The notes beneath the pieces are model-generated. The model saw only the letters and a program-made list of their open reading frames with translations, ran no database searches and was not told where the DNA came from. From Thermoplasmata archaeon (GTDB taxonomy: Archaea; Thermoplasmatota; Thermoplasmata; Thermoplasmatales; GCA-001856825), in contig JAKAUZ010000003.1 of NCBI GenBank assembly GCA_021817415.1, forward strand, positions 1 to 64,000: a stretch of DNA of 64,000 nucleotides. Reading direction: 5' to 3'. How positions within the stretch are numbered: position 1 is the first letter of the stretch; every line of letters begins with the position of its first letter. The translations under genes and the position numbers were made by a program. Positions 6,688 to 51,446 of this stretch are shown piece after piece.

Positions 6688-6716
6688 AGCAAGGATTAAG
6701 ATTGATGGAGAGAACA
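6688..6716 (-). other. 3' arm of the pre-23S processing helix
   Basis: This segment pairs with 9635-9662 across the 23S gene: the core ggattaagat is repeated exactly in both arms in the pairing orientation, with small bulges on either side, followed by an imperfect extension. Archaeal rRNA precursors are cut in such a helix by the bulge-helix-bulge endonuclease. Confidence 0.7.
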
Positions 6717-9630
<2,914 letters not shown>

Positions 9631-9634
9631 ACAC

Positions 9635-50162: not shown

Positions 50163-50302
50163 TCCCTTGTCTCCTCTTCCGCTGTACACAAAATTTCATC
50201 CAAATCTGGTATATTTGTTTTGGGAATAAAATTCACATAATTCAGACTTAAATATTCAATTTGCTGTAGTTAGATTTCTATGTTAGAACCGGTTTAGCAT
50301 CA

Positions 50303-50364
50303 GAGCAGGATGATGACATCAGCCTTAACTGATGATGATGAATGACAGGCAGTCTGATCTGCTC
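50303..50364 (+). ncRNA. C/D box sRNA guiding 2'-O-methylation
   Basis: All elements are in order in 62 nt. The terminal stem gagcag (50303-50308) pairs with ctgctc (50359-50364). Box C is ATGATGA (50310-50316), then a 12-nt guide catcagccttaa, D' box CTGA (50329-50332), 2-nt spacer, C' box ATGATGA (50335-50341), a 12-nt guide atgacaggcagt and D box CTGA (50354-50357). The 12-nt spacing on both sides is the constrained spacing of archaeal C/D RNPs. By the N+5 rule the targets are the residues opposite C in guide 1 and G in guide 2. It lies between protein genes; a TATA-like cttaaatat is about 45 nt upstream. Confidence 0.88.
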
Positions 50365-50373
50365 ACAATAAGC

Positions 50374-50904
50374 TCAGAATACCCTTCTGTTCAGGAACTG
50401 CATGAGGGTACGGAAATCACCACCTCTCAAAGCGCTATCGAACGCTTTGAAGAGTTCGGTGGAATCATCAGCATTTGCAAGTTCGTAAATCCGGACTAGG
50501 ATATTCTGCTGTCTTGTGATCAGCTTTCTGAGTTCCAGCTCTATGGCAGATATCTGTTCATTTGTATCCCTTAGCTCTCTTATGAGCTCCTCCAGATCTT
50601 CGTAGTTATCCTTGATGTCTTCTTTCCCTCCCTCGAAGTTGGATATATTTTCAATAAACTGTAATAAAGATAGCAAAGGTGCATTGGCACGGTAAAGTAT
50701 CCTCTGAGGACCTTCCTCTGAGTTTATCTTTCCCACCCTGTACACCAGCCCGTTGTTTTCCAGAAGTTTTAGGTGTTTTGCAATGAGTTGCTGGGAAGTC
50801 CCGACTGAACGTGCTAGCTCAAATGTATAAGAAGGCCTGATAGACAGTATGCTGAGCATCTTCCTTCGAATGTCATTATCTATCAGGTCCAGCAAATCGG
50901 TCAT
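50374..50904 (-). CDS. ArsR-like winged-helix regulator downstream of hsp20
   Basis: A 176-residue protein with a winged-helix domain at the N-terminus (about 8-75; LARSVGTSQQLIAKHLKLLENNGLVYRVG and a wing). A coiled-coil helix follows (about 95-140; DLEELIRELRDTNEQISAIE), probably for dimerisation. It begins 2 nt after the hsp20 stop and is thus co-transcribed with it. The arrangement resembles archaeal heat-shock regulators such as Phr, which repress hsp20 and other heat-shock genes; the identity is inferred from context. Confidence 0.75.
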   Translation of the reverse strand: MTDLLDLIDNDIRRKMLSILSIRPSYTFELARSVGTSQQLIAKHLKLLENNGLVYRVGKINSEEGPQRILYRANAPLLSLLQFIENISNFEGGKEDIKDNYEDLEELIRELRDTNEQISAIELELRKLITRQQNILVRIYELANADDSTELFKAFDSALRGGDFRTLMQFLNRRVF

Positions 50905-50906
50905 AT

Positions 50907-51446
50907 TTATGAGATGGGAATCTTCTTCCCTTTACTTTTCTTTGGGGATGCCTTTTTGACAATTATGTCCAGTACTCCATTGGAATACGTTGCCTTTATG
51001 TTTTCCTGATCAACTTCCTCCTCCAGCTCTATTTCTTTGTAGTATTTTCTGTCATTTTTATCTACCTTCACCACTAGTGAGCTGTTTTGCACGTCGAGTG
51101 AGATATCACTTTTGTCGACTCCCGGTATCTCCATCGTTATATCGAGTTCGTTTTCCCTTTCTTGAATATCCGTGACAGGTTCCCTGTATTCCGGACTTGG
51201 TAAGCTTGAATACTCCTTCGGAACGTTACCGAATTCCTGGAACACCGGTTTGCCATCGGGACCTACCCTGTACGTAAACCCGTAAACGTATGATCCAGGT
51301 TGCCCCTTCAGACTCTCCATTTCATCGAACGTATCGAACCACCTTTCGAACATTCTCCTGTATTCCCTGTCGGCATTTTCAAGGAAGTCATAGATGCTGT
51401 CCCAAACTTCGTCATCATCCTTTTTCCTTATTCTTCGTATTCCCAT
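50907..51446 (-). CDS. hsp20: Small heat shock protein, Hsp20/alpha-crystallin
   Basis: A 179-residue chaperone that holds unfolding proteins. The alpha-crystallin domain runs from about 88 to 165 and shows ELDITMEIPGVDKSDI and NGVLDI(I)VKK (the N-G-V-L motif); the C-terminal tail carries the I-x-I motif in KKIPIS. The N-terminal region is charged and aromatic-rich (YRRMFERWFDTFDEME). The ATG has a strong SD-like ggaggt 7 nt upstream. It is the first gene of a two-gene operon with the regulator at 50374. Confidence 0.94.
   Translation of the reverse strand: MGIRRIRKKDDDEVWDSIYDFLENADREYRRMFERWFDTFDEMESLKGQPGSYVYGFTYRVGPDGKPVFQEFGNVPKEYSSLPSPEYREPVTDIQERENELDITMEIPGVDKSDISLDVQNSSLVVKVDKNDRKYYKEIELEEEVDQENIKATYSNGVLDIIVKKASPKKSKGKKIPIS

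Follow-up and report, generated by a model that had tools for sequence, protein, structure and literature searches.

A double-guide C/D box sRNA gene of a Thermoplasmata archaeon with a predicted 16S C1402 guide that covaries with 16S position 1404

The sRNA element occupies the gap between two minus-strand genes in the window, by which the whole 64-kb stretch of DNA analysed is meant, and lies 9 nt from the stop codon of one of them, a 176-aa gene (Table 1). This neighbour looks like an ArsR-type regulator, its fold being named by eye. The next gene beyond it encodes an HSP20-like protein, and together the two genes span 50374-51446 on the minus strand. In relatives of the same family the sRNA locus was examined 13 times, and in all 13 homologues of both genes adjoin the sRNA. 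The sequence TTAAATAT at 50248-50255 could be a candidate TATA box; a scan for sigma-70-type promoters and terminators, which is the wrong model for archaea, gave hits at chance level only.

The host genome, a 2.03-Mb assembly of 88 contigs with 89% completeness, is archaeal, as the window holds an archaeal 23S gene, and it encodes both fibrillarin (173.6 bits) and a Nop-domain protein, Nop5 (105 bits). The 23S gene lies at 6709-9634 on the minus strand without an adjoining 16S gene, and the 16S and 5S genes are on other contigs (G000:C2 and G000:C69), which suggests that the rRNA genes of the host are unlinked. Several tRNA genes are repeated, often at contig ends (tRNA-Cys at L031, L035 and L040, tRNA-Arg at L042 and L043), and these may be contig-end repeats or assembly contamination.

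Table 1. Features of the sRNA element and of the adjoining gene (window coordinates).
Feature	Position	Strand	Remark
Terminal stem, 5' arm GAGCAGG	50303..50309	+	pairs with 50358-50364, 7 pairs including one G-U
Box C (RUGAUGA), ATGATGA here	50310..50316	+	sequence
D' guide CATCAGCCTTAA	50317..50328	+	predicted target 16S G902 (own 16S position 845)
Box D' (CUGA), CTGA here	50329..50332	+	sequence
Box C' (UGAUGA), TGATGA here	50336..50341	+	sequence
D guide ATGACAGGCAGT	50342..50353	+	predicted target 16S C1402 (own 16S position 1346)
Box D (CUGA), CTGA here	50354..50357	+	sequence
Terminal stem, 3' arm TCTGCTC	50358..50364	+	pairs with 50303-50309
Gene of an ArsR-like HTH protein (fold assigned by eye)	50374..50904	-	ORF; tail-to-tail with the sRNA

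Direct reading of the letters confirmed the layout given in the initial annotation: a terminal stem, boxes C, D', C' and D and two guide spacings of exactly 12 nt each are all present, with 3 nt between D' and C'. The core of the stem is formed by GAGCAG (50303-50308) and CTGCTC (50359-50364), and the wobble G50309-U50358 adds a further pair. A strict pattern (RTGATGA, 10-13 nt, CTGA, 2-9 nt, TGATGA, 10-13 nt, CTGA) and a loose one were run over both strands of the window, and each matched at 50303-50364 only. In 150 dinucleotide shuffles of the window, the mean number of matches per shuffle was 0.0 for the strict pattern, 0.04 for the loose pattern and 0.0 for the loose pattern with a stem of at least 5 pairs. 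With one match of the strict pattern in the window and none in the shuffles, the earlier judgement that such a layout is very unlikely to arise by chance holds. The folding energy of the element is unremarkable (z -0.47), as expected for a kink-turn RNA. A search of Rfam at gathering cut-offs listed nothing at 50303-50364.

Archaeal guides are 10-12 nt long, and the methylated nucleotide lies opposite the fifth guide base before box D or D' (PMC7994747). Both guides were scanned against the organism's own 23S, 16S and 5S rRNA and 50 tRNA matches. The D' guide forms 8 contiguous Watson-Crick pairs (guide positions 3-10) at 16S position 845 (GCAAGGCUGA), while at 16S position 1346 (ACCGCCUGUCA) the D guide forms Watson-Crick pairs at 10 of its 12 positions, including a contiguous run of 8, and has an A-C mismatch at guide position 3 (C1400). 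With the numbering anchored on the primer sites in standard use at 907 and 1392, we take these positions to be E. coli G902 and C1402; G902 is located at the base of the helix 27 tetraloop and C1402 in helix 44, at the decoding centre. The initial annotation had proposed to look for at least 9 bp of complementarity under the N+5 rule. This length is reached by the D guide if non-contiguous pairs are counted, and the D' guide falls short of it, so that a prediction within this genome would be inconclusive. Moreover, 143 of 400 shuffled D' guides and 86 of 400 shuffled D guides found at least 8 contiguous pairs somewhere in the stable RNAs. Guide-target complementarity in the own genome alone is thus not significant, and therefore relatives were compared.

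The D half of the element (TGATGANNGACRGGCNNNCTGA, at most one mismatch) was found in 97 of the 117 genomes of the order, at least one of them (G042) being spurious, and in 47 of the 51 good-quality genomes. The D' half (TGATGANNTCAGCCTTNNCTGA, at most one mismatch) was present in 59 of 101 genomes, the own genome counted, and reversed-pattern controls gave 0 for either half. Without any mismatch, the complete two-guide pattern occurred in 54 of the 117 genomes. D-half matches in G157 and G231 are not preceded by a C/D' half and appear fortuitous. Under loosened box patterns, the full box order was observed in all 61 of the 61 parsed loci, which are a subset of the D-half matches, some sharing a genome, with the G042 locus (L268) excluded beforehand. 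The boxes, on whose conservation in related genomes the initial annotation had made its reading partly depend, are thus kept across the order. The terminal stem is kept as well while its letters vary: among 46 distinct flank pairs it has a mean of 5.5 bp, compared to 3.2 bp with swapped flanks, and the highest mean among 1000 flank swaps was 4.0 bp.

Covariation between the D guide and 16S rRNA was analyzed with a 16S pattern that left position 1404 open and a guide pattern that left guide position 7 open (A or G), so that agreement between the two was not forced. The guide pattern fixed positions 4-6 and 8-10, and conservation at these positions is therefore partly selected. Among the 70 genomes with 16S, U1404 was accompanied by A at guide position 7 in 21 genomes and C1404 by G in 40. 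Guide position 7 thus matches 1404 in 61 of 61 genomes after dropping G042 and in 61 of 62 with it; this sole discordant genome was dropped since its D-half match (L268) has no boxes and is not a C/D RNA. Eight C1404 genomes that have no guide match stand outside the 61/61 count. Three of the 73 16S-pattern matches were judged spurious by eye, namely the second matches of G111 and G072 and the sole match of G114. Two further 16S-pattern matches were rejected because the DNA that holds them contains no 16S 3' end: that of G360, which with CCTGTC and a GACGGGC guide had appeared as a counter-example at phylum level, and that of G122. The helix 44 partner of 1404 changes too, with A1497 in all 21 U1404 genomes, so that U1404-A1497 stands in place of C1404-G1497; A1497 was read by script in 17 genomes and by eye in the four of genus g19, where the neighbouring bases differ. 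The U1404 position of the own genome is L001:2848 (own 16S position 1348), and those of the relatives lie in L196-L264 and L299-L304. Outside the order, U1404-A1497 was also seen in a further six genomes of the class (families f7 and f18), with no matching guide among those found.

On a tree built from 36 near-full 16S sequences, position 1404 changes five times (bootstrap range 5 to 5). When the two columns were masked, five changes each were obtained for 1404 and guide position 7. These coincide in 5 of 5 independent pairs, for which a sign test yields p 0.0625, the lowest value that five pairs allow. The lineages with a change are the own family, f3/g6, f6/g16, f6/g19 and f6/g9. Pairing with 16S was seen for guide positions 4-7, 9 and 10 in all 61 genomes and for position 8 in 60 of 61. 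C1402 was the best or tied-best site in the whole 16S for 33 of the 34 genomes with near-full 16S; in the exception, G002, a U-G wobble at guide position 8 brings the contiguous run down to 4 pairs. The complementarity of the D guide to 16S at the N+5 position is established by this covariation. The expectation that the two guides specify two 2'-O-methylation sites in rRNA or tRNA is supported and can now be narrowed down to 16S G902 and C1402 as the predicted sites, both by the N+5 rule and C1402 also by covariation.

The D' guide has a more varied history. It is kept in many lineages and is unrelated in several others, and helix 27 differs in part of the latter (GCAAGACUGA in genera g11, g25 and g9, GCAAGGUUGA in f3); in genus g13 the D' guide is unrelated, yet helix 27 has no such change. 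Replacement of the D' guide in several lineages indicates that the G902 site is dispensable, and since this guide is lost in places and helix 27 altered in some, the C1402 function appears to be the steadier one. Beyond the order, the TCAGCCTT guide was found in C/D architecture in named records of Thermococcus, Aciduliprofundum, Archaeoglobaceae, Bathyarchaeota and Vulcanisaeta. Several other TCAGCCTT matches in named records are bacterial or have no second half, and are probably due to chance.

From these comparisons we consider it highly probable that the element is the gene of a double-guide archaeal C/D box sRNA directing 16S 2'-O-methylation at G902 and C1402, both methylations being predicted. 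We infer that the locus is transcribed, that an RNP assembles and that both sites are methylated. The transcript would fold into a kink-turn at C/D and a k-loop at C'/D' and bind L7Ae, Nop5 and fibrillarin; the D' guide would then direct methylation of 16S G902 and the D guide that of 16S C1402. One might object that a box arrangement with an ordinary fold energy (z -0.47) and a score under the Rfam cut-offs is a functionless product of chance or decay. Such arrangements did not arise in any of the 150 shuffles, boxes, guides and a compensating stem are conserved across the order, and conservation and covariation together refute this explanation, to which we assign a negligible probability.

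The two remaining alternatives concern one guide each. The D guide might methylate position 2120 of 23S rRNA instead of, or besides, 16S C1402, and in the own genome the 23S site indeed has the better contiguous score (8.5 versus 8.0, a G-U pair counting half). Against this, 16S C1402 gives the highest Watson-Crick total for the D guide among all own stable RNAs (10/12), and the guide tracks 16S 1404 in five independent lineages, which makes a 23S target quite improbable. That the D guide alone is active, with the D' guide as a decaying relic of an ancient guide for G902, is also unlikely, if less so: it would account for a D' match of just 8 contiguous pairs and for the unrelated D' guides of several lineages, some of them with an altered helix 27. 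The TCAGCCTT core, however, persists with at most one mismatch in the 59 of 101 genomes mentioned above and is also present in Thermococcus, Archaeoglobaceae, Bathyarchaeota and Vulcanisaeta, which speaks for ongoing selection in the lineages that retain it. A double-guide sRNA with predicted targets at both G902 and C1402 is therefore the reading we prefer.

As to its meaning, we tentatively propose that in Thermoplasmata the pair 1404-1497 may have switched between C1404-G1497 and U1404-A1497 at least five times, with the C1402 guide following each time. This might represent a coevolution with three partners, namely two rRNA bases and a trans-acting guide, and would imply strong selection for Cm1402. 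As the same RNA pairs with helix 27 in many lineages, it may also hold helices 27 and 44 together during assembly of the small subunit. The C1402 guide can be traced through an archaeal order in which changes of the target act as repeated tests of the guide, so that the target identity of a predicted guide emerges from evolution, independently of biochemistry. Cultured relatives would be the place to probe how important Cm1402 is, and how important the 1404-1497 pair, which is usually conserved. The element itself is ordinary in kind and well supported; its notable aspect is the repeated coevolution of a guide with the decoding centre.

In its anatomy, the element does not differ from other archaeal C/D box sRNAs, with which it shares RUGAUGA and CUGA boxes, internal C'/D' boxes, 12-nt guides, a terminal stem and the N+5 rule. 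Among Rfam families, sR60 (RF01309), an archaeal C/D RNA, comes closest, below threshold with 29.1 bits versus a cut-off of 50 (E 2.7e-5). Like the element described here, sR60 and the Thermococcus RNAs carry a D' guide with a TCAGCCU core that points in the same register at G902. Their D guide is GGGAGUGACGGA, in contrast to ATGACAGGCAGT here, and by its register would be read as directed to U1406, four nt from C1402. As the D guide differs and the cut-off is not reached, the element was filed as an archaeal C/D box sRNA and not as sR60. In the Thermococcus loci L129, L138, L151 and L163 the G902 guide is kept beside a D guide GGGAGUGACGGA (GGGAGUGACGCA in L138) that would point to U1406. Other second guides (ACTCTGGCAGT or a ATCAACCG core) were seen beside the G902 guide in Archaeoglobaceae (L131, L149, L165 and L169) and Bathyarchaeota (L118, L125 and L166), which indicates that the G902 guide has had different partners.

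In archaeal 16S rRNA, the densest cluster of conserved predictions is described for helices 3, 18 and 27, and predictions in helix 44 are sparse, E. coli A1408 and G1494 rather than C1402 being named in the part of that survey drawn on here (PMC4644070). Methylation of the nucleotide itself is on record for bacteria, eukaryotes and Pyrococcus abyssi: Table 2 of PMC11542601 gives P. abyssi Cm1369 as the counterpart of Cm1402 in E. coli, Cm1639 in yeast and Cm1703 in human, and the same nucleotide is Cm1645 (AtU43) in Arabidopsis (PMC11542601). The likeness to the eukaryotic snoRNA guides for 18S Cm1639, Cm1703 and Cm1645 thus lies in the site (PMC11542601). In E. coli, the same nucleotide, 16S Cm1402, is made by RsmI, which is a protein enzyme and not a guide RNA (PMC11542601). 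In the literature searched (open-licence papers), no description of a guide that covaries with U1404-A1497 was found. The kind of system to which the element belongs is known, while the covariation between target and guide is new.
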